Assembly (NCBI GenBank): GCA_021845925.1
Contig: JAJZUW010000011.1
Coordinates: 1 to 64,000 of the forward strand
DNA: 64,000 nucleotides
DNA from: Pseudomonadota bacterium
GTDB taxonomy: Bacteria > Pseudomonadota > Gammaproteobacteria > Burkholderiales > Sulfuriferulaceae
Direction of reading: 5' to 3'
Shown here in pieces: positions 1 through 64,000 of the stretch. The notes beneath the pieces were generated by a model. The model was given only the letters and a program-made list of their open reading frames with translations, ran no database searches and had not been told where the DNA came from. Positions within the stretch are counted from its first letter, which is position 1. Every line of letters starts with the position of its first letter. The position numbers and the translations under genes are program-made.

Positions 1-87
1 GCCTGGATGAAAGACACGCTGGAAAAACTACCCGCCTGGCCGAACAGTCGGCTGGATGAACTGCTGCCGCTCAAAGCAGAAGCATAA
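1..87 (+). CDS. IS66-family transposase, C-terminal fragment (5' end outside window)
   Basis: Twenty-eight codons and a TAA stop in frame 1. The visible peptide (AWMKDTLEKLPAWPNSRLDE then LLPLKAEA) matches the short C-terminal domain of IS66 TnpC-type transposases, where a (D/E)xLxxxP...RIDELLP pattern is typical. No catalytic residues are in view. Whether the full gene is intact cannot be judged from this window. Confidence 0.65.
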   Translation, partial: AWMKDTLEKLPAWPNSRLDELLPLKAEA

Positions 88-126
88 ATCAACGGCCGGT
101 CATAGATGGGAGGGCTGGCCGCTTAC
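1..126 (+). mobile_element. 3' end of an IS66-family element
   Basis: The window opens inside a coding frame ending at 87 whose last residues read LDELLPLKAEA, matching the usual IS66 transposase tail (R-I/L-DELLP). The frame stop is followed by 39 bases ending in GGCCGCTTAC at 117-126. This is the reverse complement of a GTAAGC-type tip, the standard terminal sequence of IS66 elements. What follows (GACGGCC...) resumes a reading frame similar to AlpA-type regulators, so the IS boundary is placed at 126. Family assignment is from recognised motifs; the rest of the IS lies outside the window. Confidence 0.7.
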
Positions 127-12762: not shown

Positions 12763-13649
12763 GATTTTCTGTCCATGATCAGATCGGCCAGATCGGCCAG
12801 GTGCTGGCTGGCGGGCAATGGTGCAATGGCGGCCAGAGCCTGCTTGTGCAGATCGTCGGCCAGTTCGCGAGCGTGCCGGATGCCAAGCAAGGTGACATAA
12901 GTCGATTTGTTTTGCGCGGCATCCTTGCCGGCGGTCTTGCCGAGATCCTGCGTGCTGGTGGTGGCATCCAGGATGTCGTCAATCACCTGGAAAGCCAGAC
13001 CAACGGCATGCGCATAGCGGTTGAGCGCCTCGGTGGCGGCTGGATATGGTGCTTTGCCACACAGAGCGCCAAGCTGTATCGATGCCTTGATCAGTGCGCC
13101 GGTCTTGAGGATGTGCATCATCTCGAGTTCTGGCAGTTCAATCGATTTGCCGGTGCTGTCCAGATCGATGGCCTGGCCGCCTGCCATGCCGCGCGATCCG
13201 GATGCCTGGCTCAGCAGACGGATCATGTCGAGACGGGCCACAGCAGGAATGGCCAGACCTTCATGGGTCAGCAGTTCAAATGCCAGCGTTTGCAGGCTGT
13301 CGCCCGCCAGTAGGGCAGTGGCCTCGCCAAAGGCCACGTGGCAGGTTGGTTTGCCACGACGCAGCACATCGTTGTCCATGCAGGGCAGGTCGTCATGGAC
13401 CAGTGAGTAGGCGTGAACCAGTTCGACTGCACAGGCCGCCACTGTCACATGTTGTGTTGTTGCGCCAAACACTTCGCCGGCTGCATAGGCCAGCAGCGGA
13501 CGGATACGCTTGCCACCCGACAGAACAGCATGGCGCATGGCTTCGTGCAGGCGGGCGGGAGCCAGTTTCGGGTCGGGCAGGAATTCGTCGAGCGCATGCT
13601 CGATGCCCTGCTGGCGCTCGGTCATCCAGTCATTGAACTCAGTCTGCAT
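12759..13649 (-). CDS. ispA: Farnesyl/geranyl diphosphate synthase
   Basis: A 296-residue trans-isoprenyl diphosphate synthase. Two Asp-rich motifs hold the Mg-diphosphates: DDLPCMDND (residues ~86-94) and DDILD (~224). GGKRIRPLL near residue 46 binds the isopentenyl diphosphate. It makes geranyl and farnesyl diphosphate for quinones and undecaprenyl carriers. It overlaps xseB by 11 bases upstream and dxs downstream, the usual betaproteobacterial arrangement. Confidence 0.95.
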
Positions 13650-13878
13650 GCGATTGGCCCGGCTGGAAGAAGTTTTTCAGGACGCCATTTTCAAGCAGTT
13701 CGACCTGTTGTCGGGCATTGTCCAGAAACTGCTGGCAGGTTTGCAGCAGGGTCGCACCACGTTGATAGGCACTCAGGGATTCTTCCAGTGACAGTTGCCC
13801 GGATTCCATGGCTGCCACAATCGCTTCGAGTTCGGACATGGCCGCTTCGAAGGTGGGGGGTGTCGCGGGTTCGCTCAT
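13639..13878 (-). CDS. xseB: Exodeoxyribonuclease VII small subunit
   Basis: A 79-residue helical protein (MSEPATPPTFEAAMSELEAI, then VAAMESGQLSLEESLSAYQR and GATLLQTCQQFL). This is the XseB pattern, in which the central EAxxxLExIVxxLExGxLxLEexlxxyexG motif forms the coiled hairpin that binds the XseA large subunit. Start at 13878 chosen because upstream codons are not conserved in type. The enzyme degrades single-stranded DNA from both ends. The large subunit is not in this window. Confidence 0.9.
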   Translation of the reverse strand: MSEPATPPTFEAAMSELEAIVAAMESGQLSLEESLSAYQRGATLLQTCQQFLDNARQQVELLENGVLKNFFQPGQSHAD

Positions 13879-14140
13879 TGCTGTCTGCGGACGGTCAAAG
13901 GAGCAAATCTTACCGAATAATTGCATGAAATGCCAATATTGGGGATAATCCCAAGACGTCCCGGCGTGGCGCTGGATAAAGGAAGCACACGTTTTCATTC
14001 AGGCCATGCGGTTTTGCCGGCATCGTTATCGCAAAGAATCGCCTGGCATTTCATTTGCCATTTTCTATAAGGGGGTTAAGCGGCTGTTGTGCCGTTTAAT
14101 ATCGTTTTTTGGTCACTTCGCACGGGGTGTACTCGGAATT

Positions 14141-15244
14141 ATGTCTCATCTGGCTGTTTCAACACAGTTGTCCCGCACTTCTCCTCATTTGCCTCTCTCC
14201 TGGTACTTTGATCCTGATATTTACGCGCTGGAACAGAAACTTCTGTTTGCCAGCGGACCAGGTTATGTCGGTCACGAACTGATGGTGCCCAATCCGGGCG
14301 ATTATCATGTTCTCGAAACGACGGGACGTGCCGACATGCTGGTGCGAAGCGGGGAATCGGTGCAGATGCTGTCCAATATCTGCCGTCACCGGCAGGCCAC
14401 CATGTTTGATGGCAAGGGCAATGCCCGCCAGATTGTCTGTCCGCTGCATCGCTGGACTTATGACCTGCAAGGCGAACTCATGGGCGCGCCGCATTTTCCC
14501 GGCAAGCCCTGTCTCAATCTGAAACAGACGCCACTGCAACGCTGGAACGGGCTGCTGTTTGCCGGCCAGCGTGATGTTGCGGCCGATCTGGCCAACCTGG
14601 GTGTCCAGGGTGATCTTGATTTCAGTGGTTATATGCTCGACCGGGTGATGGTGGAAAATTACCCGTTCAACTGGAAGACCTTCATTGAAGTGTATCTGGA
14701 AGACTACCATGTCGAGCCGTTTCATCCGGGTCTGGGCAATTTTGTCACCTGTGACAATCTGCGCTGGGAGTTTGGTGCCTGGTACAGCGTCCAGTCGGTT
14801 GGCGTGTCACGAGGTCTGAGCCGGTCTGGCAGCGAGGTGTATGCCAACTGGCAGCAACGGCTGCTGCAGTATCGCGATGGTCAGCCCCCCCGGCAGGGTG
14901 CTATCTGGCTGACTTATTACCCGAATGTGATGGTGGAGTGGTATCCGCATGTTCTGGTGGTCAGCAGCATCATTCCGACCGGTGTGGAAAGCTGTCGCAA
15001 TGTGGTGGAATTCTATTATCCGGAAGACATTGCCCTGTTCGAGCGCGAGCTGGTTGAAGCCGAACAGGCTGCCTACGAAGAAACCGCTCTTGAAGATGAC
15101 GTAATCTGTCGTCGCATGCACGAAGGCCGACGCCTGTTGTACCAGCAGGGGCGTGAAGAATCCGGACCTTACCAGTCACCAATGGAAGATGGCATGGTAC
15201 ACTTTCACGAGTTCATGTGGCGGCAGTTGTCCGGGCAGGTTTGA
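14141..15244 (+). CDS. Rieske-type aromatic-ring-hydroxylating oxygenase alpha subunit
   Basis: A 367-residue protein starting MSHLAVSTQLSRTSPHLPLS. The N-terminal domain has the [2Fe-2S] Rieske motif CRHRQATM...VCPLHRW (C-x-H-x16-17-C-x2-H, residues ~84-107). The C-terminal catalytic domain has the mononuclear iron triad in EVYLEDYHVEPFHPGL (His 194/199 region). A reductase partner is not adjacent. Similar genes lie divergent to xseB-ispA-dxs in many betaproteobacteria, but the substrate is not established there to my knowledge. The 262-base gap before it holds no gene and should contain both divergent promoters. Confidence 0.85.
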   Translation: MSHLAVSTQLSRTSPHLPLSWYFDPDIYALEQKLLFASGPGYVGHELMVPNPGDYHVLETTGRADMLVRSGESVQMLSNICRHRQATMFDGKGNARQIVCPLHRWTYDLQGELMGAPHFPGKPCLNLKQTPLQRWNGLLFAGQRDVAADLANLGVQGDLDFSGYMLDRVMVENYPFNWKTFIEVYLEDYHVEPFHPGLGNFVTCDNLRWEFGAWYSVQSVGVSRGLSRSGSEVYANWQQRLLQYRDGQPPRQGAIWLTYYPNVMVEWYPHVLVVSSIIPTGVESCRNVVEFYYPEDIALFERELVEAEQAAYEETALEDDVICRRMHEGRRLLYQQGREESGPYQSPMEDGMVHFHEFMWRQLSGQV

Positions 15245-15436
15245 GGGCATTGCCCGGCTGGTTTCGCACAACCTTTGTCGCACCATCCGTCACATATTTC
15301 GATGACAGGCATCCGGATCGGGCGTTTGCTTGCTGAATTTCCAGGATAGTCCGGCTTTGTCTTCCAGGCCAGACTGCTGCCTGTGCCAGCAAAATCCGGA
15401 TGAAACGATATGCAGAGGGATTCGATGGAGGAAAAA

Positions 15437-17650
15437 ATGCAGCGGCGCAAGTACAGCCGCATGCAGGTGGTGCAGCCGGCTGTTCTGGGCAGCAAGCTGG
15501 TCAGGGAAGTGCCAGGCCAGATCCGCGACTTTTCGGCAGGTGGCGTGCTGTTTGTGTTTGACGACACCGCTCCGATGCTGCCACTGGCCAACCAGTTTGT
15601 GACGTTGAGCTTTGTTGCCGAGCAAGGTGGCACTCTCCAGATTGCCGGGCGTGTGGCCCATGTCAACGAACGCATGCTCGGTATCCAGATCACCGATTTT
15701 CCTCAGGCAGCCATGCGAGCGCTGGTTGCAGAAACCGAATTCGGCGAATTCGTCGTCGATGGTATCCAGGTCCATTATTCCGAAGCGCAGCGGCAGAAAG
15801 CCCTGCAGGATTGTTCCAGCGCCTTCGGGACGGTCATGCAGTCCGTCGTTCAGCGTTTTTATGAACTGTACGACGTCCGCCTAGAACGGGACAGCGAAGG
15901 TATGGGGGCAATCCTGCAGGAACAGCGCATGATGCGGCAGCTGCGTCCGATTCTCATGCACGAACGCAGGCGTATCGAAGCCATCTGGCAGGCTGGTTAC
16001 GAGCAACGGGTTTCACAGGCCGGACTGGGCGAGCGCGAACAGCGCAAGCCGGTTGAACTGGCGCTGGTCGAATACGACACCTTCGATGACTGGCTGGCCG
16101 TGACCCAGGCGGTGAACCGTCTGGAACAGGTTCACGCTGCCATCGTGGCTCGTCTGGAACTACGTTATTTCCGGCTGATGGACAATGGCCTCGAGCTGGT
16201 CAACCCCTATAGTCCGCATGCCATCCTGTGGATGCTGCATGATGCAATTGACCGGGACCTGCCTTCTCAGGCGCTCAAGCTTCTGGTTTACGATCTGTTT
16301 GCCATTGCACTCAATGAACGGCTGGAAGGTCTGTATGAATCCATGCTGAAGACACTGGCATTTGTCGATCCGGTGCGGCGCAAGGCCGTTGCGAAGCACA
16401 ATGTCAGTCCACCTGCCACGCCAGACAGACCGGTTGCTGAACCGGTGGTGCAACCAGTATCCCTGCCCGAACTGAGACAACTGTCCCATATTGAAGATTT
16501 TCTGTCCGGCCGTGCCCGCAACGCGGGGCTGGAGGAAGAAATGGACGTGCCAGACTGGCTGGCTGGCATGGGCGTGCCGGAAAACGTGCGGGCAGCGCTG
16601 GCGGTGCAGGATTTCGGTCTGACGCAATACCTGTGGCAGTTCAACTGGCTGAACAAGAATGCGCCCGATCATTCGGGCTTGCAGAAAATCGAGTCGCTGG
16701 CCGGATTGTCTTTGAAATCGGGTGTCGAAATCACGGGCGAAACCATGTGTGACGTGCTGTTGCTGGCTGACGAATCCGCACCGTTGCCGCCTGCGACCCA
16801 GCCGGTGCCATGTTCGACAGAACAGCTGCAATTGCTGGCTGATTCGGCGAACGAGCGCATGGCGGATCTGACACCGGCCCGACTGGATGCGGCGGCGCGC
16901 GAGCGGCTGCTGGAACAGCTGGGACGAGGTATCGAAAACCCAGTGTGTCATGCCGCCGTTCTGTCACGTTTTTTTGCCCTGGAAAAACTGTTCGATTATC
17001 TTGGTTCGGGCGAGGCGGCGGGCTCCCATCTGGCCACTTTGTTGCTGCGGTTGAAACCTTCGGTCGAGTTTGACTGTTTCCGAGCGCCTGCCGGGTTGTT
17101 TATGCGCGATTCCGCCACGCTGCGTCTGTTCCAGCTGCTCGAACGAATGATGCTGGTGGCGGATGACGAAGGCCATGTTCTGGACGAGCGTCTGCTCAGA
17201 TTGCTGGACCTGCTGGTTGGCACAGCCACTGAAAGCAATGGGCAGGCTTCGCACGATGCCTGCAACCGTCTGCTGGAAAACCTGCTGGCCGTGGTCGCAC
17301 AGTGGCGCAAGCTGCGCGGAGCCACTCTGACTGAAGTGGGCAGCCGTCTGCCTGAATCCGGTCAGGAGAATCTTGGCAGCATTTCTCCGGTGGTGCTCAA
17401 TGCCGTGGCGGCGGTTCACCGGGGTGACTGGCTGTCATTGCCGGTGCCGGGCGGACGTAGCCACTGGCAGGTACTTGTGGCCGGCAGTCCGGGACGTCCC
17501 TGGTTGCTGACCAACGTGTCGACCACCCGCGTGGTGGTGTTTTCCCATCTGCGTGTCTGCAGTCAGTGGGAGCTCGGGCAATTGCTGCCCGAGCCACGTT
17601 TCCGTGAGCCATTGCTGCGACGCTGGCTGGAGGTGCTTGCTTCGGCCTGA
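15437..17650 (+). CDS. PilZ-domain DUF1631 family protein
   Basis: The product is 737 residues from the ATG at 15437, which has GGAGG five bases upstream (15427-15431); earlier in-frame ATGs at 15410 and 15425 lack one. The first ~100 residues form a PilZ domain: RRKYSRM carries the RxxxR c-di-GMP contact, and DFSAGGVLF the second D/NxSxxG motif. The rest is a long helical domain of the DUF1631 family, once loosely labelled thymidine phosphorylase. It is expected to bind cyclic di-GMP in the cytoplasm; its output is unknown. An earlier start cannot be excluded. Confidence 0.8.
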   Translation: MQRRKYSRMQVVQPAVLGSKLVREVPGQIRDFSAGGVLFVFDDTAPMLPLANQFVTLSFVAEQGGTLQIAGRVAHVNERMLGIQITDFPQAAMRALVAETEFGEFVVDGIQVHYSEAQRQKALQDCSSAFGTVMQSVVQRFYELYDVRLERDSEGMGAILQEQRMMRQLRPILMHERRRIEAIWQAGYEQRVSQAGLGEREQRKPVELALVEYDTFDDWLAVTQAVNRLEQVHAAIVARLELRYFRLMDNGLELVNPYSPHAILWMLHDAIDRDLPSQALKLLVYDLFAIALNERLEGLYESMLKTLAFVDPVRRKAVAKHNVSPPATPDRPVAEPVVQPVSLPELRQLSHIEDFLSGRARNAGLEEEMDVPDWLAGMGVPENVRAALAVQDFGLTQYLWQFNWLNKNAPDHSGLQKIESLAGLSLKSGVEITGETMCDVLLLADESAPLPPATQPVPCSTEQLQLLADSANERMADLTPARLDAAARERLLEQLGRGIENPVCHAAVLSRFFALEKLFDYLGSGEAAGSHLATLLLRLKPSVEFDCFRAPAGLFMRDSATLRLFQLLERMMLVADDEGHVLDERLLRLLDLLVGTATESNGQASHDACNRLLENLLAVVAQWRKLRGATLTEVGSRLPESGQENLGSISPVVLNAVAAVHRGDWLSLPVPGGRSHWQVLVAGSPGRPWLLTNVSTTRVVVFSHLRVCSQWELGQLLPEPRFREPLLRRWLEVLASA

Positions 17651-52421: not shown

Positions 52422-52438
52422 GGGCCGTTTTCGTCAAA

Positions 52439-52497
52439 TCTCATTAAACATGACACGAATCTCATTAAAGATGACATTCGTCTCATTAAAGATGACA
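52439..52497 (+). repeat. Three 21-bp-spaced repeats, putative TnsB-binding sites
   Basis: TCTCATTAAACATGACA, TCTCATTAAAGATGACA and TCTCATTAAAGATGACA begin at 52439, 52460 and 52481. The 21-base period is two helical turns and matches the close spacing of TnsB sites in the right end of Tn7. The core CATTAAAGATGACA reads in the same inward direction as the transposase sites of related Tn7-like elements. The function is inferred. Confidence 0.7.
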
Positions 52498-52587: not shown

Positions 52588-53238
52588 ATGGAAAATAAAG
52601 CATACAGCCCTCCGCAGTCGAACTTGGCCAGGCAAATAAAACGTGGCCGGGTTGGCGTGCATATCGTTGACTTCCCGTCCATAAAGAATTCCAGGGTGAT
52701 TGTCTGCGAATCCAAGCTGGAAGCAGATTTCTGTCAGTTACTGGAATTTGACCCTGAAGTTGTCTCCTATACACCTCAGCCCCAAACCATTACGCTTTAC
52801 GTGAACGGCGTGCTGACCAATTACACGCCAGATTTCCAGGTCGCTTATCAATTCAGGCCAGATGGCTTTTTTGAAATCAAGCCCGACGAGGTTACGTCCT
52901 GGGATGAATATCAAGCCCTAATGGCAGCGGCTGCCCAGTATTTTCCAGAGATGGGATATTCGTTCAGATTGATGCTTGGATCCGAGATTCGGCAGGAGCC
53001 GATGTTGAGTAACCTGAGATACTTTTATTCGAAGCTGCATGTCGTGTCCGAGCACGAATACAAATATCTTCTGGAGCATCTGAAGCGTTCAGGAGGAAAA
53101 GCCAATTACGCCGAATTGCTGGAAATGCCGGTGCCACCGAGTATTGGTGCCATCGCCAAAGGAATTTATAGCCAGACGATTGATGTTGATCTGAATTTGA
53201 GTCTGGGAAGAGACACTGTGCTGCGTTTGAGGGGCTGA
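52588..53238 (+). CDS. tnsA: TnsA-type transposase endonuclease subunit
   Basis: A 216-residue restriction-endonuclease-fold protein. It cuts the 5' ends of a Tn7-like element, so that with TnsB it moves by cut-and-paste. Catalytic residues are likely Glu45 (ESKLEADF), Asp82 (NYTPDF) and the Glu96-x-Lys98 pair (FFEIKPDEV). Residues ~110-216 form the TnsC-contacting C-terminal helical domain. It is the first gene of a tight operon (2 bases before tnsB). Confidence 0.9.
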   Translation: MENKAYSPPQSNLARQIKRGRVGVHIVDFPSIKNSRVIVCESKLEADFCQLLEFDPEVVSYTPQPQTITLYVNGVLTNYTPDFQVAYQFRPDGFFEIKPDEVTSWDEYQALMAAAAQYFPEMGYSFRLMLGSEIRQEPMLSNLRYFYSKLHVVSEHEYKYLLEHLKRSGGKANYAELLEMPVPPSIGAIAKGIYSQTIDVDLNLSLGRDTVLRLRG

Positions 53239-53240
53239 CG

Positions 53241-55142
53241 ATGAGCCAAGCGCATAGCCCTAAAATCGGGGCAAGGTATTTTCTGAATGGCAGCCAGTAT
53301 GAGGTTGCTGGGGTGGATGCTGAATATGTCACCCTGCGTGGGATCAATACCAAAACGAATCGATATATCCAGGTTGCGAAATTCGGCGATAGCCTGAACT
53401 CCGGAGTGCTCAAGCTTTCATTGTCGGCACCAGCCGAAGGTTCGGAGGTTCCTCAAATTCTTGGTCTGAGTGATAAGCAAAGAAAACTTTATGAACGAAA
53501 GGTAGCCTATGTCCTGAAACTCGGAAAGTTGGCGCAAAATTCGATTGGGAAGCATGCACTTGTAGATCAGATCATTGAGTTTGCAAAGTCGATTCAGGAT
53601 CCGGTTCCGCCCAGTTATGAAACATTCATGCGTTGGATGAGGGAGTATTACCGAGCAGGTGCCAATCCGTTGAAACTTACCGATAAGCGTAAGGGAACTG
53701 GCAGGCATAAGCGTCTCGATTCTGAATCGATCGAGATCATGAACGATTACATCAAGACTGAATTTCTGAAAGATACTCGTCCGTCGGTGCAGCTTGTATA
53801 TGATCTTGTGAGTGCACAGATTGCCGTCAACAATCAGAAGCGGCCCGTTGATCGGCAGATTGCAATTCCGTCCAGGGCGACTTTTTATCGGGTGGTCGCC
53901 GCGCTCGCTCCGTATTATGTGGATAAAAAACGTGAAGGCAAGTACGCCGCCAATAAAAACCATAAGTACGGCAAAGAAATTCACAAGACTTCGCGCCTGT
54001 GCGAACGGGTCGAAGTAGACTCACATTTGATGGATGTCCTGATCGTCACGGACGACAGAAAATCCGTAGTCGGTCGTCCCTGGCTTTGTGCCATGATCGA
54101 CGTGGACAGTCGCTGCATCATTGGCTGGGAACTGTCATTTGCCCCTCCATCGGCAGCAAAAGTGCTGCGTGCTCTCCGGTTTGCCATGGCCTCTGAAACT
54201 GACTGGGAGACAGCCGGGGCTCCAGAAGAACTCGTTCTGGATAATGGTACCGAGTTCAGGAACTACGTGCTGCAATTGGTCGCCGGCACCTATGGGGTTC
54301 AGCTTCGCTATGTCTCCCCGCGTTCTCCGGATCAAAAGCCGCACATTGAACGGTTTTTTGGCACGCTCAATACGCAATTTGTGCATTTGATGCCTGGAAC
54401 TGTCAGATCCAGTCCGTCTGATCGCGGGGACTATGATTCGAAGTTCAACGCCACCTTCACCCTGACTGAGTTAAGGGAAAAGTTTTCTTTCTGGGTCAGG
54501 GAGATTTATCATGAGACCAAACACCAATCACTTGGCATTGCTCCGATCGATGTCTGGCGCAGAAAATTCAAATACTACCCGCCCAACCGATATCCCAAGG
54601 TCGATCTTGATCTGACCTGCCGCCCGTTTGTATATCGAACCGTTTCAGGCGGTCGAGTCAGTTTCGAGCGGCTGCAATGGAGCAGCCCGTCCCTTTCATC
54701 CATGGCTGCTCGCGCGCAGCAGATGGGGGCAGGGGACAAGGTAAAGGTTTATTACGATGAAACGGATCTTGGATTCGTGCTGGTGGAAGATCCGACAGAC
54801 CGCAGCAGCCTGATTCGAGCGGATGCCGTGAGTCCAGCTTATCAGGAAGGATTGTCTCTTTACGAACACAAGCTGATCATGCGTAAAAAGAAACTGGATT
54901 ACCGGAATTTGCCCGATGTCGGGTTCAGTCAGGTGCGGCTGGACTTTTATCGTGAACTCTCAAAATTGGCCTCGTCCGCAAATGTTCGGAAGGTGATTGC
55001 CAGATTGCAGAAGGCAATTCCGGAACTGGATGAGCAGTCCGAACCGCTGTTTATACCGGAAACGCCCGCAGACAAACACAGCGTTCCATCAGCACAAAAC
55101 AATGAAGATGACGAAGGGGATTATGTGGGGTACCTGGTATGA
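53241..55142 (+). CDS. tnsB: TnsB-type DDE transposase
   Basis: A 633-residue DDE transposase that binds the ends and joins the 3' strands to the target. The triad is Asp260 (VEVDSHLMDV), Asp334 (LVLDNGTEF) and Glu370 (KPHIERFFGTL). N-terminal helix-turn-helix segments read ATFYRVVAALAPYYV (~213). The C-terminal Mu-type beta barrel and tail contact TnsC. ATGA overlap with tnsC. Confidence 0.95.
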   Translation: MSQAHSPKIGARYFLNGSQYEVAGVDAEYVTLRGINTKTNRYIQVAKFGDSLNSGVLKLSLSAPAEGSEVPQILGLSDKQRKLYERKVAYVLKLGKLAQNSIGKHALVDQIIEFAKSIQDPVPPSYETFMRWMREYYRAGANPLKLTDKRKGTGRHKRLDSESIEIMNDYIKTEFLKDTRPSVQLVYDLVSAQIAVNNQKRPVDRQIAIPSRATFYRVVAALAPYYVDKKREGKYAANKNHKYGKEIHKTSRLCERVEVDSHLMDVLIVTDDRKSVVGRPWLCAMIDVDSRCIIGWELSFAPPSAAKVLRALRFAMASETDWETAGAPEELVLDNGTEFRNYVLQLVAGTYGVQLRYVSPRSPDQKPHIERFFGTLNTQFVHLMPGTVRSSPSDRGDYDSKFNATFTLTELREKFSFWVREIYHETKHQSLGIAPIDVWRRKFKYYPPNRYPKVDLDLTCRPFVYRTVSGGRVSFERLQWSSPSLSSMAARAQQMGAGDKVKVYYDETDLGFVLVEDPTDRSSLIRADAVSPAYQEGLSLYEHKLIMRKKKLDYRNLPDVGFSQVRLDFYRELSKLASSANVRKVIARLQKAIPELDEQSEPLFIPETPADKHSVPSAQNNEDDEGDYVGYLV

Positions 55143-56194
55143 AGCTGAAACTTTGGTTAAGGGACGGGGCCGGTGCCGCGGCCGGGTCAGACGAGCATGA
55201 AGAAATGCATCGGCGAGTAGAAAAACAGCGGGAGTACGCGCGCTATACCATTCCCCACAAGCTGTTTGCCGATGCTCTGGAAAAGGTCGAAGACTGCCTG
55301 GCATCAACCCAAGTTGCGGTGGATACGAATGCCTGCCTGATCACCGGGCTCCCTGGAACCGGGAAATCGACTCTTTCCAACAAGCTGATCAAGGATATCG
55401 AAGAGCAGATTCCACCGAGGACTGTTCTGACAGAAGATTCGATCAAGAAGATCATTCCTGTCTTTTACACCAAACTGGACAGTGATGTCACCACGAAACG
55501 TTTGGCAAAGAGCATGCTGATCGCGCTTGGTGAAGAAAATGTTTCCGGGGACGGCACCGATCTGACCATGCGCCTTGTGCGTTTGTTGAAGACCTGCGAC
55601 ACCCGGCTCATCATCCTGGATGAGTTTCATCACTTGCTGTTAAGGGGTGCGGAAAAGTCTCGAGAGGCCGTATGCAACTGGGTCAAGTTCCTGCTCGACA
55701 GCTCCGGCGTGCCAATGGTCATTCTCGGTACGCCAGACTGTGAAACAATTATCGACGACAATAGGCAGCTCAGCCGTCGGGTGTGCTTTCGCAGCCAACT
55801 GGAACCTTTCGAATTCTCCCTGGCATCGAAATCTGAGTATATCAGGGTCATCCGAGCGCTGAACAGTGCCTTTGAAACTCTGGGGCAGGTCCAGATCAGT
55901 CCGATGCTAACGGACGATCGCATGGCACAGGCGCTCTATGTTGCAACCGGCGGGTTGATGGATTCGATCAGGAAGCTGCTGGCCTATGTGCTGGCGGCTG
56001 CGCACAACGCCAACAGCCCGGTTGTCGGATTTCCGGAGTTTCAAACTGCGTATTCCCGTCTCACGCTGGAAGGCGCAATTCTCGAACAGACCAGCAACAA
56101 GAAAAGTGACCCCAATCCTTTCGCGATGACGACAGCCGATCTGATTGGCATATTGTCGAAAGCCTCTGATCGTTCGAGAAAGAAAACGCGGTGA
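55139..56194 (+). CDS. tnsC: TnsC-type AAA ATPase
   Basis: A 351-residue AAA+ regulator that forms filaments on target DNA and links TniQ to TnsB. Walker A is GLPGTGKST (residues 70-78), Walker B LIILDEFHHLL (~161-171), and the sensor region ILGTPDC (~202). The start overlaps tnsB (ATGA) and the stop overlaps tniQ (GTGA). Confidence 0.95.
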   Translation: MKLKLWLRDGAGAAAGSDEHEEMHRRVEKQREYARYTIPHKLFADALEKVEDCLASTQVAVDTNACLITGLPGTGKSTLSNKLIKDIEEQIPPRTVLTEDSIKKIIPVFYTKLDSDVTTKRLAKSMLIALGEENVSGDGTDLTMRLVRLLKTCDTRLIILDEFHHLLLRGAEKSREAVCNWVKFLLDSSGVPMVILGTPDCETIIDDNRQLSRRVCFRSQLEPFEFSLASKSEYIRVIRALNSAFETLGQVQISPMLTDDRMAQALYVATGGLMDSIRKLLAYVLAAAHNANSPVVGFPEFQTAYSRLTLEGAILEQTSNKKSDPNPFAMTTADLIGILSKASDRSRKKTR

Positions 56195-58341
56195 TCGAGC
56201 GCTTGCATTATCTGGCTTTGCCGAAGGATGAAGAAAGTCCGCGAAGTGTCCTGATGCGTACCGCGATGCACAATGGGTATCCCAGTGTAACGCAGCTCGG
56301 CTCGCGGTTCGGGCTTCAGGTGACACAGCCCCTTTCCTTGCAAATTGGGGATGCACCCTTAATCGGCGAGCTTCTCAAGGAAGCGGGGGAACACAAGGAG
56401 CGATTTGGCCGGATTTTTTACACCCAGGCAAAAGGGGTTACGAAAGCGACACCTGTGGCGATCATGGGAACGTTGACCCCGCTCTCCGCCTTCGGGAAAT
56501 CTCACCACAAAGTCTGTCCAGCCTGCCTTGAAGAAGGGTATCTGAAATCCATCCAGGATGTAGACTGGGTGAATGTGTGCCCCTATCATGGCATATGCTA
56601 CCTCACTGAATGTCCTGGGTGTGGCAAGCCATTTAGCTGGATTTTCATGCAGATTTCGACATGCAGGTGCGGATGCCACCTGGATCCACATCGGCTTCCC
56701 CGTATCGAAGCCGATGCAGAGGGCGCCAGACTGCTGCTCGAATATCTGAGAAAAGGAGATGCGACCAGTGTTCAGCGGCTGAATCGAATTCTTGCTGCAT
56801 TGAAATTTGAGCAGGCCGACGATATCGATGCGAGAATCCAGCTCTTCAATCAGGCTGCTTCGATTTCGTCAGAGCCCGAGCGAGGGCTGAAAATCTGGCT
56901 GTCGAAAATGCGGGAAAAATGCTCTGGTCTGCCCGCCAGAGTCCTGCTGGCGCCATTTCTTGCCATGCGGGATGACGAGGTAACTAGCAAGGCGCAACAG
57001 CTGCTGGATACGTGTTCCCCTGATTTTGTCGAGGAATGCCGGGAGTGCTATTGCAGGGAGGGCAGCCTGACAGAGCCGCAAACCTGTCTCGCGTTGGGTA
57101 TCAGTTCCCAGACGCTCGCAAGCCTGGTAACGCATGGATTTCTCGAAAAGCGGCTGGTTGGGAAAAGGGGGGTTGAATTCCCCTATCAATCCCTGTGCAA
57201 GTTCTACGGGTTGTTCAAACCGGTGAAGATTAGGCCAGGAATCATGCTGGAGGCGTTGTGTCCGCCTAATTCGTTTGCGGCCTCATTGAGCAGGAAGCTT
57301 GAGCTGTTGCAAGCGAACAGCTTGGTTCTGGCTGAGGCGGATGCACGTCAGCCACTCAGCCGGTTTCTGATCGCACCGATACTGGATGAGGAACCTTCGC
57401 TGAAAAGCAGCACGGTCATTCCCGAAGGTCATATCAGTGTTCGCTCAGTGGCTGAGCGTCTTGGTGTCTACCCGGATGCTGTCAGACGGGCTTTGCAGGC
57501 AGGCTTCATTTCCAAAGCGGTCCTGATTGGCAAGGCCAACACGGTATTCGTGCCAGAAACGGACGTGGCTGAATTCGAGCGGACGCATGTGTTTATCGGG
57601 CCGTTGGCAAGGCAATGTGGCGCGAAGGCCACAGCATTTTCCGCGCAACTCGCTACAGCAGGCATCCTGCCGGTATCCGGGCCAAGGATTGATCAAGGGC
57701 TGGTGGCGCTGTACCGGGCAGAAGACCTTGCTGGTCATGATTTGAAGAAAATCGCAGCCATGCCAAAGTTTCAGACCAGGGCAGGGCGCAAGAAGGGTGA
57801 TCCAATAAAATATTCCGGACAGGAATGGCTCCGGGCAGCGGACGTTGGCGGCCTGCTGAAAATGTCAGTCCAGTATTTTAGTGCATTGGTGGATTATGGC
57901 TTGCTTGTAGAAGGCGTGCCGCCAGGGCGTGAAGCAGACAACACACGATTCTTCGGGGCCGAATCGGTAGGTGTTACGCAGCAATGGCTGGATTCGGCCA
58001 AAACGCCGGAGGAAATTGCCAAGAGGGAAGGGAGCACAAAAGCCCAGATATTGAAGCGATTTGTAGCAAGTGGCAACATCAAACCGCTTTACCTAGGCAA
58101 GAAAACCCTGATTTCAGGGGAAGATGTGCAGCGGATACATGAGCATCGCAAGCTATACTGTACATGCCCTGAGGCCGCGGCACACATTGGCGCGCAACAG
58201 CGACACTTCCACAACATGATCAAACTGGGCAAAATTAGCCCAGTACCGGAAGAAGAAACGGGTGTGGGTACGGTGATTTTGTTGAGGTGGGGGGATGTGC
58301 GTGGCCCAAATAAAGCGCGTGCTCAAGCAGCAGTTGTATGA
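56191..58341 (+). CDS. tniQ: TniQ/TnsD-type target-site selector with HTH-rich C-terminus
   Basis: A 716-residue protein with GTG start overlapping tnsC. The N-terminal TniQ domain reads LPKDEESPRSVLMRTAMHNG. Zinc ligands are CPACLEEG (~109), CPYHGICYLTECPGCGKPF and TCRCGCHLD. The C-terminal ~400 residues hold several helix-turn-helix/wing modules: QTCLALGISSQTLASLVTHG, SVAERLGVYPDAVRRALQAG, ADVGGLLKMSVQYFSALVDY, EEIAKREGSTKAQILKRF and EAAAHIGAQQRHFHNMIKLG. It is longer than Tn7 TnsD (~508) and should read a specific site, here presumably the end of nrdB. The last codons overlap IS-derived sequence, so the native C-terminus may be lost. Confidence 0.88.
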   Translation: MIERLHYLALPKDEESPRSVLMRTAMHNGYPSVTQLGSRFGLQVTQPLSLQIGDAPLIGELLKEAGEHKERFGRIFYTQAKGVTKATPVAIMGTLTPLSAFGKSHHKVCPACLEEGYLKSIQDVDWVNVCPYHGICYLTECPGCGKPFSWIFMQISTCRCGCHLDPHRLPRIEADAEGARLLLEYLRKGDATSVQRLNRILAALKFEQADDIDARIQLFNQAASISSEPERGLKIWLSKMREKCSGLPARVLLAPFLAMRDDEVTSKAQQLLDTCSPDFVEECRECYCREGSLTEPQTCLALGISSQTLASLVTHGFLEKRLVGKRGVEFPYQSLCKFYGLFKPVKIRPGIMLEALCPPNSFAASLSRKLELLQANSLVLAEADARQPLSRFLIAPILDEEPSLKSSTVIPEGHISVRSVAERLGVYPDAVRRALQAGFISKAVLIGKANTVFVPETDVAEFERTHVFIGPLARQCGAKATAFSAQLATAGILPVSGPRIDQGLVALYRAEDLAGHDLKKIAAMPKFQTRAGRKKGDPIKYSGQEWLRAADVGGLLKMSVQYFSALVDYGLLVEGVPPGREADNTRFFGAESVGVTQQWLDSAKTPEEIAKREGSTKAQILKRFVASGNIKPLYLGKKTLISGEDVQRIHEHRKLYCTCPEAAAHIGAQQRHFHNMIKLGKISPVPEEETGVGTVILLRWGDVRGPNKARAQAAVV

Positions 58342-58514: not shown

Positions 58515-60449
58515 ATGGAGAATGATATTCAACAGATGATCAACGTGGCTAGTACGCCACCGAACGGTGAAGTAGAGCTAGGAGCCCCACCGGCCAGCGC
58601 CTGGGTCAGGTTTCTACGTAGCTACGGACCCACGCCGAACAACCTGACGATGTTCGACGAATATGTGTCTGGCGCTCTGGGCAGGGCGAAGGTTCAGCCG
58701 ATCAGTCTGTCGACGCCGCTGCTTGACTCGATGGTTCAGTACGTAGAATCCAAGGCACCGGGGTCGCTCTTAATCGCTGGCACGGCGGGCGATGGCAAGA
58801 CCTACCACTGCCGGGCCCTTTGGACTCGCATCGGGGGAGATCCCAAGGTCTGGGCGGGCAAGGGCAATGTGAAGGAGTACCGCCTGACTGATGGCCGGTT
58901 GGCGGTCTTCATCAAGGATCTGTCCGAGTTCAATGGCGAAGAGAGTGATCTTCCACTGCAGCGGCTCGAAAAGTCGGTCCTAGGTGGAGACGACTCCGAA
59001 ATCGTGATCCTGGCGGCCAACCATGGCCAGCTTCTCGACCGCCTGCGCGACCTCGGAAAGCGCCAGGGCCGCGTCCATCCGCTCCGCAAGCCCCTGCAGG
59101 AGCGTTTCCTGCAAGCCGGCCCCGCGCCGGACAGATTGGCTGTCTTCGACCTCAGCCGCTCGACTAGCCGGAAGACGCTCGACGAGGTCGCCAATGCGGT
59201 GGCCGGACATCCCGAATGGGCCAACTGCGCGCGTTGCTCTTTGAAGGCCGGTGGGAGGGTTTGTCCGATCGATGAGAACCGTCGCCGCTTGCTCGGCGAG
59301 TCTGATGGCGGGCAGCTCGCGCGCCGCCTAGGCGATTTGGTCGAGATCGCCCGACTCAATGGACTACATCTCCCGGTGCGTGATCTGCTCGCCCTGTGCT
59401 CGAACATGGTTCTCGGCTACGCTGACGCCAAGGGGGCCAAAGAAAATTTGATGACCTGCGCGGACGTGCCCAACATCCAAGAGAGCGGGCACATCGGCAA
59501 GGCCAGCATCTACACCAACGTCTTTGGAGGCAACTTGCCCAAACGCAGGGCCGCCGATCGGCCCGTCTTCAAGGCTATGGCCAGTTTCGGCGTAGGCGAG
59601 GAGACTACCAACGCGGCCGATGGCCTGCTGGTTTATGGCAAGGACGATTCGAGGCTCCAAGCCGATTTCGATCGCCTGGTGGGCTGTGACCTCTTCTACG
59701 GCGCGACAGCGGAATTCCGCGCGGCCCAAGACGCCTACTTGGAAGGCTATGAGGGCGCGCGCTTGGAAGGCGGCTCATCTGAGTTTATGGAGATGCTCGA
59801 AGCCCAGCGTCGCCGGTTCTATTTCACCTTACCCGAGGCCGAGGCAGACCATCCCCGCTGGTCAATGACGGCCTTCCGCTTCGCGGGCGACTACCTGGGT
59901 ATCATCGAATCGCTCAAGGCAAAGAAGCCCGTCAGCGAGATCGTTCGCGGGCGCATCGCCAAGGGGCTCAACCGTGTCATGACCGGACTACTTTTGGAGA
60001 ACGTCGATCGCATTTTCATCGCTAGCTCCGGCGGCTTCACGCAAAGCCGCGTGAGCGTGCTCTGCAACCATGAGACGCCCTCGCGCCGGCAAGGCGGGGT
60101 CGGCATGGCCATCAAACTCGATGAGGAGACGGAGCGTCCCCAGATCGACGTGTCGCTGTCTCCTGGCCCCGGCAACTCGGTCGCCTTCGACCTCACGCCC
60201 ATCCGGCATGAGTTCCTCTCGCGCGTCGCGGACGGCGCATTGCCAGCGAGCTTCTCCAACGAGTGCCTCGAGGATCTGTTGGCCTTCAAGGCCAAGCTGC
60301 TGCGCAAAGCCGAGATCGTTCGCAAGACCGGATTTGCCGGCGACGACGAGGCCGGCGGCGAAGCCTCCGCGCTGACGTTGAATTTCATCGACATCGAACC
60401 GGGAGGACGCGGCTTTGCTCGTCCTGTGACTGTAAGGACCCCGGCATGA
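58515..60449 (+). CDS. P-loop ATPase of a three-gene defence-like operon (DptF-like)
   Basis: A 644-residue protein starting at the ATG at 58515 (AAGGAAAG upstream, 58502-58509). Walker A is GTAGDGKT (residues 89-96). A probable zinc knuckle CARCSLKAGGRVCPI (~238-252) and long helical regions follow. No helicase or nuclease motif is clear. The three-gene order ATPase, mid-sized protein, very large protein matches the DptF-DptG-DptH restriction module of DNA phosphorothioation systems; I give this as the closest known layout, not a proven identity. GC is clearly higher than in the tns genes. It overlaps the next gene (ATGA). Confidence 0.6.
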   Translation: MENDIQQMINVASTPPNGEVELGAPPASAWVRFLRSYGPTPNNLTMFDEYVSGALGRAKVQPISLSTPLLDSMVQYVESKAPGSLLIAGTAGDGKTYHCRALWTRIGGDPKVWAGKGNVKEYRLTDGRLAVFIKDLSEFNGEESDLPLQRLEKSVLGGDDSEIVILAANHGQLLDRLRDLGKRQGRVHPLRKPLQERFLQAGPAPDRLAVFDLSRSTSRKTLDEVANAVAGHPEWANCARCSLKAGGRVCPIDENRRRLLGESDGGQLARRLGDLVEIARLNGLHLPVRDLLALCSNMVLGYADAKGAKENLMTCADVPNIQESGHIGKASIYTNVFGGNLPKRRAADRPVFKAMASFGVGEETTNAADGLLVYGKDDSRLQADFDRLVGCDLFYGATAEFRAAQDAYLEGYEGARLEGGSSEFMEMLEAQRRRFYFTLPEAEADHPRWSMTAFRFAGDYLGIIESLKAKKPVSEIVRGRIAKGLNRVMTGLLLENVDRIFIASSGGFTQSRVSVLCNHETPSRRQGGVGMAIKLDEETERPQIDVSLSPGPGNSVAFDLTPIRHEFLSRVADGALPASFSNECLEDLLAFKAKLLRKAEIVRKTGFAGDDEAGGEASALTLNFIDIEPGGRGFARPVTVRTPA

Positions 60450-61999
60450 GCGAAATCATCAAGCGCCCGGAGATCAAGAGCGTCGACTTTTGCGTCGACG
60501 AGAACATTTGGGGACACCGCCTCTACGACGAGCAGCTTCCGCACTTGACGGTGTTGGAATTCTTGGGTGTGCTCGGCTCGAACCTTGACAAGCCGCTGTG
60601 CCCTCACGAGGGGTCGGGCGGGTCGGTCAAATTTCAGCCGCAGCGGCAAATCCGCCTGCGCGGTCTGCTGTTTAACAACCCCTACGTTGAGTCCATTGCC
60701 GAAAGTGCGCTGCCCGATGAGGAGAAGTGGCGGCAGTGGTTCGAGAAGTTCGACCAGGGCAAAACCGGCAACGGCGACGACGACATGGCCTACCTGCGCC
60801 AATCGTTCGCGAGCTTCGACGACTTTGCTAAGGCCGTCGAGCTCTTGCGCTCCTCCTCGTTCGAGTCACGCAGCAACAAGCGTTGGAGCTCGAAGTTCGT
60901 CTTCCCATTCGGTCCCGACGCCCTCTATGAGGACTTGGAGATCGACTCGCGCGGCAAGATGAGCAACGACCGGCGCTTTTTCGCGCGCACGGGTGAGCTT
61001 CTCTATCTCATGCTCACGCGTGCTAAGAGGGGCGCGGAGCTCGGCGACATCCTGGCCAAGCGCCTGTTCGATCGAGAGGTTCCGATGAACAGGCTCGCCC
61101 GCGCACTGCAAGGCCCGCCGCAGATCGCCGACGATCCGCGACCCTCCGGCTACCTGCCTGAAACCGCCCACGCGCGCTTTGATCAAATCTGCGAGGACTG
61201 GCTGTCAATCTTGGCCAAGGACATGCCGATCTACGACGCTTTGGAGCATCTGATAGCCATCTCCAGCTTAAACATGCTCCTCTACTTTCTCGAGCGGGCC
61301 AAGCGGATCGCGGGCGACGATGATCCGGTAGAGATCGTCTGCGAAATCGTCTCCAGGGAGCGCACGAAGGTGCGTGCGCTTTCGGGTGACAGCTACCAGT
61401 TTAACCAAGGGCTTTCCGCCAAGGCAGTGCGCACCCACGTCGAGGCGATTCGGCAAGAGGACCAGTGGGGCAAAGCCGTTGCGAGCGAATTCCCCGAGGC
61501 TGAGCGCGTGAAGCTCATGCGCGAGCGCTTCCAGTGGCCCACGGCCGACGAGGGTGATGACGAGGATTACTCCGGAAAGAGCCCAGACGAGCTGGTCTCC
61601 GATTTGGCCGAGCTCGCGCTAGCACGCCACGAGCAACACGTTGGCAAGATCCACGCGTCCTGGTCGCGCGCGATCGGTCTCAGCTCCCGCCGACTTTCGC
61701 GACGCACACGCTATGCCCCCAACGATCGCCTGCTTAAGTCGATTGTTGTGGTCATCGTGGACGACCGCATGCAGTTCGACGAATTCCTGGCCGAGGCCAA
61801 ACGGCGCTATGGCCTAGTGCTCGGCGACGCCGAGGGAGCGCACCTGGTCGAGGCCAAGCTGATCGACCAAGAAGAGCTCAGCGAAAACCGTGGCAACCTT
61901 GAGGCCCGACTCATTGGCCTGGGTCTGGTTCGCAGACTCTCCGATTCCTGCTCATTTGTAGAAAATCCGTTCGCGTTCAAGGGAGAGGCTGCATGCTGA
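60446..61999 (+). CDS. Second protein of the defence-like operon (DptG-like position)
   Basis: A 517-residue protein from the ATG at 60446, which overlaps the preceding stop as ATGA. An N-terminal MSEIIKRPEIKSVDFCVDEN is followed by an alpha-rich body with FPFGPDALYEDLEIDSRGKM and RRFFARTGELLYLMLTRAKR, and an acidic linker ADEGDDEDYSGK (~367-378). No catalytic motif or membrane helix is recognised. Its position between an ATPase and a very large protein suggests a DptG-type adaptor. It overlaps the third gene (ATG at 61993, stop at 61997-61999). Confidence 0.55.
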   Translation: MSEIIKRPEIKSVDFCVDENIWGHRLYDEQLPHLTVLEFLGVLGSNLDKPLCPHEGSGGSVKFQPQRQIRLRGLLFNNPYVESIAESALPDEEKWRQWFEKFDQGKTGNGDDDMAYLRQSFASFDDFAKAVELLRSSSFESRSNKRWSSKFVFPFGPDALYEDLEIDSRGKMSNDRRFFARTGELLYLMLTRAKRGAELGDILAKRLFDREVPMNRLARALQGPPQIADDPRPSGYLPETAHARFDQICEDWLSILAKDMPIYDALEHLIAISSLNMLLYFLERAKRIAGDDDPVEIVCEIVSRERTKVRALSGDSYQFNQGLSAKAVRTHVEAIRQEDQWGKAVASEFPEAERVKLMRERFQWPTADEGDDEDYSGKSPDELVSDLAELALARHEQHVGKIHASWSRAIGLSSRRLSRRTRYAPNDRLLKSIVVVIVDDRMQFDEFLAEAKRRYGLVLGDAEGAHLVEAKLIDQEELSENRGNLEARLIGLGLVRRLSDSCSFVENPFAFKGEAAC

Positions 62000-64000
62000 C
62001 CGATCGCATCATCGGGCGCGTCGGCGCAGACATCCTCGCCAAGCGCATTTCCAGTCCCGACCAGCCGGGCGATTCGGCGGCGCTCTTCCGCCTTGACAAA
62101 CTCTCGGCCAGTCAGATCGCGGCCGTCGCGCGGGCAATTCTTGCGAATCCCGATTTGCTCGCCCGTGTAGATCTGATGATCCCTGAGGCTCTGGTCGAAG
62201 GTCAAAGCCTGCCTTCGGAGACCTTAATCTCCCACAACGCTGGCTACGTCCGAAACAACGCCGAGACCGCCAAGGCGTCGATCCTGACGGCCAACGGCAA
62301 TGAGCACAACCTGGCTGACACGCTGGGGCACGTCATGGCCATCGGCGCCAAGGAGATGCGCGCCGATCCCGAGCTGTGGGTCGAGGCCACCTTGCACGCG
62401 GGCGGGCTCTCGCCGGTGCCGGACGATCGCGTCGTGTTCCATGCGGCCCTCGGTGGATTGCTTGCCTCCTCCGAGCTTTCGCTGATCCAGCTCGGCGAGT
62501 TTTGCTCCGACATCGTCGAAGCAATCTCCACCCGCGGGCTTCCTATCCGCTATGCAGTCGGCTTCGCGATGCCGCGAGCCGGGCTTCCCAGGGACAGTTC
62601 CTTCTTTTCCAATGCCAAAACCTTCACGGCTACGCGCAAGCCTTGGCAGAAGGCTTTCGCCAAGCTCTTCGCTCAACGTGCTCCGCTGCTCAAGAAGCTT
62701 CGGCAGAACGGCCAGCCGCTCGACGTCGAAGAGCTCGCCGAGCGCATCGAGGCCAATTCCGCGGACATCGCCGAAGGCGCACGCCAAGCCCTTGAGGCAT
62801 TTGCCGCCGCTCCGGTGGGCGACCAAGAGGCGGCCTCGGCCCTTGCGCAGTTCGAGTGGGAAGGCGATGGCGTCTACCTGGCCTTCGACAAGCCCAAAGA
62901 GAAGCAGCTCGGCTTGGCCGACTCGACGATTCGCTTCTTTGACCATGACTGCGAACAGGAGAGCTCGCTGGACGTAGATGCCCGAAAGCTCTTGGAGGAC
63001 TTGAAGTCGCGCGAACGTCGCTCCGACTTCACCGAGGACGACGAAGAGTTCTTTGTGAAGCATCGCCGGCTGCTCGAGCAAGACGCCAAGCTCTGCGCGC
63101 GCTGGGAGAAGGCCCTCTATGGCAAACCCATCGAGTGCAACGACTTTTTCGACGGCTTCGCCCGTGTGGTGAACAGCCTTCATGCCGGCCTGCGCGACGT
63201 CGAGGGCGAGCGCATCCTACGCTTCACCGTGACCAAGGGCCGCAAGGAGTGGCGCGAGCGCTTCAACTACGACGCCGGCAGCTACTTCTCGGCGATGTAT
63301 CGCGGATTGAAGGAACTCATGGGCTCCAAGGCCGATTGGAAGATCGAGCGGCTGGGCAATACCAGCCTGCCCGATCCGCTGTTCGACTACGAGGCCTTCT
63401 TCGCCAAAGAGAAGGAGCTTCGCAACGACAACAAGAACAAGGTCCGACCGAGTTCGTCGCTCTCGCGAGTGGCCTTGCAGATCAAGTTCGACGTGGCCCT
63501 GATCCAGATCTCCAAGGGTAAGGAGACGGTACTGGCCAAGACCCAGCTCCTGTGGAGCTACAAGCCCACCGCGATCGGCCTGTCGATGGTCGCTGACATG
63601 CGTCGCCTGTTGGAGAAGGGCGCAGTTGGCTGCACGGAAGTCCCACGCCGGATGGTGAGCAAGAAGGGCGGGGTGCAAAACGTGTCGCTCCTCGACACTG
63701 GCACGTTGGAGGCGACCTATTCGACTGACGCAGGCTCCCTGGTCCCGGCGGCCAACAAGCTTCGCAGCCTGCGATACGAGATCAAGGGCCGGATCCAGGA
63801 TCTCACGGAAGGCGGTTATCTGACTCTGTCGCAGCGCGACGAGATCAAGGCATCCTGGGACAAGTTCGAGGAGGACTACATCAAAGCAATGGGGGATTTC
63901 GTCTCCACTGGCTTGCATGGCGAGGCTGTCATGCGCCAGGCGGAATCATTTGGCGCGCTGATGACAACCCTCCTGTCCCAAGCCCGAGGCGACGTGTGCC
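61993..64000 (+). CDS. Large third protein of the defence-like operon, 3' end outside window
   Basis: Open from the ATG at 61993 to the window end (at least 669 residues), with no stop. It begins MLTDRIIGRVGADILAKRIS. Visible blocks include SLIQLGEFCSDIVEAISTRG, FFDHDCEQESSLDVDARKLL, RRMVSKKGGVQNVSLLDTGT and LEATYSTDAGSLVPAANKLR. No Walker motif is seen so far; in DptH the HerA/FtsK-like ATPase lies far C-terminal, which would fit. Overlap with the preceding gene is 7 bases. Identity is unproven. Confidence 0.55.
   Translation, partial: MLTDRIIGRVGADILAKRISSPDQPGDSAALFRLDKLSASQIAAVARAILANPDLLARVDLMIPEALVEGQSLPSETLISHNAGYVRNNAETAKASILTANGNEHNLADTLGHVMAIGAKEMRADPELWVEATLHAGGLSPVPDDRVVFHAALGGLLASSELSLIQLGEFCSDIVEAISTRGLPIRYAVGFAMPRAGLPRDSSFFSNAKTFTATRKPWQKAFAKLFAQRAPLLKKLRQNGQPLDVEELAERIEANSADIAEGARQALEAFAAAPVGDQEAASALAQFEWEGDGVYLAFDKPKEKQLGLADSTIRFFDHDCEQESSLDVDARKLLEDLKSRERRSDFTEDDEEFFVKHRRLLEQDAKLCARWEKALYGKPIECNDFFDGFARVVNSLHAGLRDVEGERILRFTVTKGRKEWRERFNYDAGSYFSAMYRGLKELMGSKADWKIERLGNTSLPDPLFDYEAFFAKEKELRNDNKNKVRPSSSLSRVALQIKFDVALIQISKGKETVLAKTQLLWSYKPTAIGLSMVADMRRLLEKGAVGCTEVPRRMVSKKGGVQNVSLLDTGTLEATYSTDAGSLVPAANKLRSLRYEIKGRIQDLTEGGYLTLSQRDEIKASWDKFEEDYIKAMGDFVSTGLHGEAVMRQAESFGALMTTLLSQARGDVC

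Follow-up and report, generated by a model that had tools for sequence, protein, structure and literature searches.

Three overlapping genes at the right-hand end of the window encode the proteins SspF, SspG, and SspH, and these very probably constitute the restriction module of a single-stranded phosphorothioate (PT) defence system that a Tn7-like transposon carries as its cargo. The window is the 64,000-base stretch from position 1 to 64000 of contig C14 (JAJZUW010000011.1; 67,617 bases), which belongs to a Sulfuriferulaceae genome of 2.34 Mb in 15 contigs (GCA_021845925.1). The first-pass annotation had already suggested a PT-linked restriction operon of three genes in a Tn7-like setting, and the matches to Ssp proteins, the transposition genes, and the paired element ends bear this out. 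It saw no modification genes in view; sspB, sspC, and sspD lie on contig C11, across a gap at an insertion sequence (IS) and inside what read as the same transposon ends. The module is thus not marker-free: a whole PT defence system appears to sit inside Tn7-like ends, with a natural disruption of sspE adjoining an intact sspFGH.

The results computed here are the identity of the genes and their order within each contig, the pairing of the transposon ends, the IS ends and the eight-base repeat beside them, the joint occurrence of sspFGH and sspB, and the fold similarity between SspG and DndG. We infer the roles of the individual subunits and, by analogy with the published system of Vibrio anguillarum FF-93, also the marking, the damage to unmarked DNA, and the defence against phages.

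The sspFGH operon

Families were assigned by profile searches with PADLOC, Pfam, and NCBIfam models. The first gene, sspF (58515–60449, + strand), encodes an AAA+-type P-loop protein of 644 residues with a cysteine knuckle, which matches the PADLOC SspF model over the entire profile (5.9e-256; positions 1–600 of 600). The second, sspG (60446–61999, +), encodes a putative DndG-like subunit of 517 residues, counted from ATG, that matches PADLOC SspG at 1.7e-227. The third, sspH (+), begins at 61993, leaves the window at 64000 with 669 residues in view, and ends at C14:67404; its product is an FtsK-like translocase subunit of 1,803 residues that spans positions 1–1766 of the 1766 in the PADLOC SspH profile (E 0) and bears an FtsK/SpoIIIE domain at its C terminus (Pfam PF01580, 2.1e-33). 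The three plus-strand genes of the first-pass annotation are thus real, as are the P-loop GTAGDGKT and Cys-rich knuckle it saw in the first protein, and its third protein does exceed 669 residues once the sequence is followed past 64000. It had also described ATGA-type overlaps: the one between sspF and sspG is ATGA (60446–60449), but that between sspG and sspH is the seven-base ATGCTGA (61993–61999).

The relatives of the module are 65 loci from an SspF scan of a genome collection, with best-segment identities of 54%–89%; 53 of these are complete, defined as at least 95% coverage of F, G, and H. Across the complete loci, the SspF Walker A motif reads GTAGDGKT in 52 and GAAGDGKT in one, a C-x2-C-x(5-12)-C pattern occurs in all 53 (in the window's protein as CARCSLKAGGRVC), and the SspH motif GATGSGKS, present in the window's SspH, is exact in 46. 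The predicted structure of SspF is similar to those of AAA+, STAND, and ORC proteins.

On sequence grounds the operon is far beyond chance, since full-length matches to defence-protein models are joined by 65 related sspF loci, and the full-length PADLOC matches of F, G, and H identify it as SspFGH, an already described system. The suggestion of an undescribed system therefore finds no support, all three proteins matching strongly a named family (Ssp, in PADLOC) other than the DptFGH proposed earlier. The likeness to DptFGH holds for the layout and, judging by structure prediction, probably for the fold of the middle subunit, the family assigned by PADLOC being Ssp. No dnd-associated NCBIfam model was among the matches of F, G, and H at E values up to 1, the presence of TIGR03236–TIGR03238 in the release being unchecked.

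The Tn7-like element and its paired ends

One end of the element lies at 52432–52497 (+ strand), directly past nrdB (which ends at 52421), and consists of the terminus CGTCAAATCTCATT and three tandem copies of TCTCATTAAANATGACA at 21-base spacing; these repeats are probably TnsB sites. Inward from this end, and all on the + strand, follow genes for a TnsA-like endonuclease subunit (52588–53238; PF08722, 1.1e-7; NF033179, 1.5e-12, under its cut-off), a TnsB-like DDE transposase (53241–55142; PF00665, 1.2e-8; PADLOC TnsB, 2.6e-22), a TnsC/TniB-like AAA+ regulator (55139–56194; PF05621 TniB, 1.8e-25), and a TniQ/TnsD-like target selector of 716 residues with an internal helix-turn-helix domain (56191–58341; PF06527, 4.4e-6; PF12728, 2.1e-7). 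When the whole genome was searched for the terminus with up to three mismatches, it turned up just twice, at C14:52432 (+) and at C11:7893 (−); a reversed-control terminus gave zero matches at the same tolerance. The copy of CGTCAAATCTCATT at C11:7872–7893 (−) marks the other element end, and the inverted ends would enclose the tns genes, sspFGH, sspE, and sspDCB, a span made up of about 15.1 kb of C14, 7.8 kb of C11, and the IS itself. Assignment to the Tn7-like elements rests on the TnsA, TnsB, TnsC, and TniQ/TnsD proteins together with the paired inverted ends and their repeats.

The element end on C11 lies where a gene of the hlyD type reaches its 3′ terminus; the hlyD of relative L116 (57% identical) stops at the element boundary, and that of L117 (56%) runs past it. 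The empty site was sought at 19 nrdB loci from relatives, 14 of the same genus and five of the same order, and was not found, as hlyD had no match in the 148–1500 bases of flank retrieved. TniQ matches occur in 22 of 300 genomes, one being the source genome itself, and the best of the others has an E value of 5.3e-25 at 26% identity; a plasmid scan gave two weak TniQ matches and SspF in 37 records. Between 52000 and 64000, the G+C fraction is 0.48–0.55 in the tns part, 0.59–0.62 in the ssp part, and 0.56–0.60 in the host flank, as if carrier and cargo perhaps had separate histories.

Modification genes, sspE, and the insertion sequence

The single match to DUF4007 (SspB; PF13182) in the genome lies at C11:6588–7460 on the − strand, within sspB (C11:7505–6582; PADLOC SspB, 4.7e-116). 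On the same strand stand sspC (C11:6589–3254; PADLOC SspC, E 0), with its motif GPFGGGKS present, and sspD (C11:3261–2419; PADLOC SspD, 1.3e-136). Most of sspE, whose product belongs to the GmrSD type (PF03235), forms an open frame on the opposite strand (C11:135–2417, +) that matches PADLOC SspE over positions 18–776 of 776 (E 0). Its start would lie on C14, where a GTG-started frame of 24 codons just past sspH (C14:67420–67491, +) runs into an IS end at 67492.

An IS66-type repeat end occupies both ends of C14 (window 1–126 and C14:67492–67617), and the first bases of C11 (C11:1–126) form the IS end opposite to that of C14, the two being imperfect inverted repeats of each other. On C14 and C11 alike, the IS end is bordered directly on its outer side by the same eight bases, GCTTCTAT. 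Elements of the IS66 family have GTAA-type inverted ends and produce an 8-base duplication. The family is indicated here by the IS ends, the GCTTCTAT repeat, and a transposase domain—the IS66 C-terminal domain (PF13817, 2e-7), which is the coding end of the repeat—read on the copy at window 1–87, the copy between C14 and C11 being unassembled. The 126-base repeat end has six matches in the genome: four are identical and all at contig ends, including one end each of C3 and C10, and the remaining two are 83%–85% identical, one likewise at a contig start.

The position of these copies at contig ends accounts for the break in the assembly, and the simplest reading is of one sspE gene split by an IS66-type element at that break, the split gene probably being inactive. 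C14 would then join C11 through the IS, and sspFGH would be linked to sspBCD across the gap by the eight-base repeat together with the pair of element ends. Close to the IS at the contig start, a PriCT_2 primase/AAA_25 protein at 591–2591 of the window may point to a further mobile element at the window's left edge.

Relatives of the module and points of doubt

The stored flanks of the 65 relatives extend only about 3 kb beyond sspH and, in 11 of 65, less than 4 kb upstream of sspF. Within them, sspF is accompanied by sspG in 61 of 65 loci, sspH in 58, sspD in 22, sspC in at least 15, sspB in at least three, and this sspE type in at least two; counts for sspB, sspC, sspD, and sspE are too low because the flank reaches no further past sspH. 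All 22 loci with sspD have a complete sspFGH, which sspD faces in 20; in the other two it lies upstream on the same strand.

Several observations weigh against the preferred reading. The junction of C14 and C11 has no sequence of its own, and the IS repeat could in principle connect other contigs. The two flanks with this sspE type show only 26% and 32% identity to it. Tn7-like elements leave a 5-base target duplication at their outer ends; none was seen by eye flanking C14:52432 and C11:7893, where the exact termini are unfixed, and a later rearrangement of the element ends is possible. Lastly, the tnsA-tnsB-tnsC-tniQ set is present in just one of the 65 sspF loci, L066, when searched by tblastn with the Tns proteins of the window and of L066 as queries.

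In this proteobacterial metagenome bin (L066:5210–11851), genes for TnsA, TnsB, TniB, and TniQ stand immediately upstream of sspF, and part-length identity to the window's proteins is 35% for TnsA, 30% for TnsB, and 25% for TnsC. Because these Tns proteins are distant from those of the window, the locus suggests a second, repeated capture of Ssp by a Tn7-like element. Loci L055 and L047 gave short or weak TnsB-like matches only. With one full tns set among 65 loci, Tn7-like carriage looks unusual for the SspFGH module, although more distant Tns proteins would escape tblastn. A literature search on Ssp in Tn7-like elements gave no match with sspBCD among the 20 listed of 2,106, which does not show the arrangement to be unpublished.

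Co-occurrence of sspFGH with sspB

A PF13182 search for SspB covered the genome of every one of the 65 loci, and SspB accompanies 57 of them (37 of the first 40 and 20 of the remaining 25). All 53 complete loci are in genomes with SspB. In each of these loci sspF, sspG, and sspH are open over at least 95% of their length, and the in-frame stops found (in 16 sspG translations, one of sspF, and one of sspH) are confined to the extremities of the matches, at query position 517 of 518 in sspG and position 8 in sspF. Four of the 12 incomplete loci break well within a contig, and none of their genomes has SspB. In L041 the sspH match ends at residue 460, in L076 the sspG match ends at 245, and L067 is without sspG and sspH. 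The fourth, L053 (Stutzerimonas kunmingensis 7850S; 13425–16584), has an sspH match ending at 760; the frame itself closes after 771 codons, next to a transposase of the rve type, and the locus is likely a remnant; the DUF4007 sspB was not found in its genome. At the other eight incomplete loci a contig end lies within 130 bases, and SspB is present in four of the eight; in one of them, L084, the sspF match also lacks its first part, beginning within the contig at residue 186.

The pattern was noticed in the first 40 loci (SspB in 37/37 complete and 0/3 broken) and tested in the remaining 25 (16/16 and 0/1), and the 95% threshold for completeness was set later. The exact chance of 53/53 against 0/4 is 1 in 395,010, a figure for loci that are related, with fairly close relatives only and three of the four broken loci in metagenome bins. 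In the genomes examined, intact SspFGH appears only alongside SspB. This fits the published harm done by SspFGH in cells without PT (PMC8092258) and differs from DndFGH, for which decoupling is reported (PMC10853773).

Proposed working and rival explanations

In the proposed scheme, IscS—encoded elsewhere in the genome (C5:108776–109981), with a score over the curated cut-off of the IscS model—would supply sulfur, and SspB, SspC, and SspD would mark the cell's own DNA with PT. The SspF ATPase and the FtsK-like SspH motor would drive an assembly of SspF, SspG, and SspH along unmarked DNA, which it would engage and damage, halting phage replication. In V. anguillarum FF-93, sspF, sspG, and sspH are each reported as required for defence, and sspFGH alone harms PT-free Escherichia coli, giving cells positive for terminal deoxynucleotidyl transferase dUTP nick end labelling (TUNEL), with a growth defect that iscS-sspBCD eases (PMC8092258). 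The PT dinucleotide yielded by the FF-93 system is d(C-PS-C). DndFGH is described as a 2:2:1 complex with translocation-coupled nicking and ATP hydrolysis repressed by PT (PMC11662687). Membership of the Ssp systems is indicated here by full-length sspF, sspG, and sspH, by sspB, sspC, and sspD in the genome (with the linkage drawn across the IS), and by IscS as the desulfurase.

The first-pass annotation had allowed for a marker-independent variant, in which invading DNA would be recognised by some other cue and PT marks would be dispensable. DndFGH is reportedly often decoupled from DndABCDE, Rakesh and colleagues propose marker independence for many such modules (PMC10853773), and SspG probably has the DndG fold; the idea is nonetheless very improbable here, with sspBCD inside the same element ends, SspB accompanying every complete locus and no locus broken inside its contig, and the FF-93 homologue harmful to PT-free cells (PMC8092258). 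That the genes form a classical Dnd/Dpt module, DptF-DptG-DptH, is more improbable still: the three-gene plan is shared, but PADLOC places F, G, and H in Ssp at full length, and the dnd-associated models were absent from their matches within the limits given above. Also counted against it are the two places in the genome, SspD and one on C7, that match the 3′-phosphoadenosine-5′-phosphosulfate (PAPS)-reductase-like family PF01507, the one model with which coupled dnd genes were sought, and the match of SspD to the DndC model TIGR03183, which at 1.1e-4 is weak and far under the model's cut-off.

Decay of the whole locus, with the IS66-type insertion in sspE as one step towards inactivity, would agree with the split gene and with IS-end copies at several contig ends. 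It is improbable, given that sspF, sspG, sspH, sspB, sspC, and sspD are open over nearly their full profiles and that SspF has its GTAGDGKT motif, SspH its GATGSGKS, and SspC its GPFGGGKS.

If the locus is, as preferred here, a PT defence system carried by the transposon, its mark-and-attack pair might by analogy with restriction-modification addiction partly insure the carrier: on loss of the element, marking would cease and lingering SspFGH would damage the cell. This extension is doubtful. Were it true, SspFGH would be strictly bound to its mark, unlike DndFGH as described, and a cell could survive losing sspBCD only after sspFGH had broken, matching the distribution of SspB between complete and broken loci.

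Resemblance of SspG to DndG and MAD7

The predicted structure of SspG matches the solved structure of DndG (7exx), so SspG probably shares the DndG fold, and it is probably, by analogy, the DNA-reading and scaffold subunit that DndG is proposed to be. The 2021 description of the FF-93 system states that there is no significant sequence identity between the SspFGH and DndFGH complexes (PMC8092258). In the literature searched, no paper names SspG together with DndG, or SspG with MAD7. The SspG–DndG link is at most partly new, because a review terms sspFGH homologs of dndFGH (PMC12707154) and DndG-related winged helix-turn-helix proteins are described in further HerA/FtsK systems (PMC10853773). 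A weak MAD7 match covers the C-terminal region of SspG (residues ~415–503; NCBIfam search, 5.7e-7), PADLOC mad7 is matched by 22 of the 26 SspG sequences scanned (best 9.6e-6), and mad8 matches the ATPase domain of SspH (PADLOC, 1.7e-21).

Comparison with known systems

With SspABCD-SspFGH of FF-93, the locus shares the sspFGH operon, the Walker A motif of SspF, the FtsK-like C terminus of SspH, the nearby sspBCD, and an IscS desulfurase; it differs in its Tn7-like carrier, in sspDCB facing sspFGH, and in the interrupted sspE between them, no sspE having been found in FF-93 (PMC8092258). SspABCD-SspE systems have sspBCD and a GmrSD-type SspE in common with it, but here sspE is split by the IS66-type element, which leaves SspFGH as the intact effector. 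DndABCDE-DndFGH (DptFGH) follows the same three-gene restriction plan, with a middle subunit predicted to be of like fold and a translocase-type third subunit, whereas the modification genes here are sspBCD and F, G, and H are without a dnd-associated match over the E range and models already stated. Likeness to MADS (MAD7/MAD8) covers about 90 residues of SspG and, in SspH, an ATPase domain of generic kind; no search was made for the methylase genes of MADS. Tn7-like transposons with defence cargo (PMC8649781) share the terminal tnsA-tnsB-tnsC-tniQ set and the paired inverted ends with tandem repeats; the table of that survey has a DND row with a count of 14, and its main text contains no word starting 'Ssp'. 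The unusual features of the locus are its Tn7-like carrier, the splitting of sspE by the IS, the association with sspB, and the likeness of SspG to DndG; it is otherwise an ordinary member of a known system.

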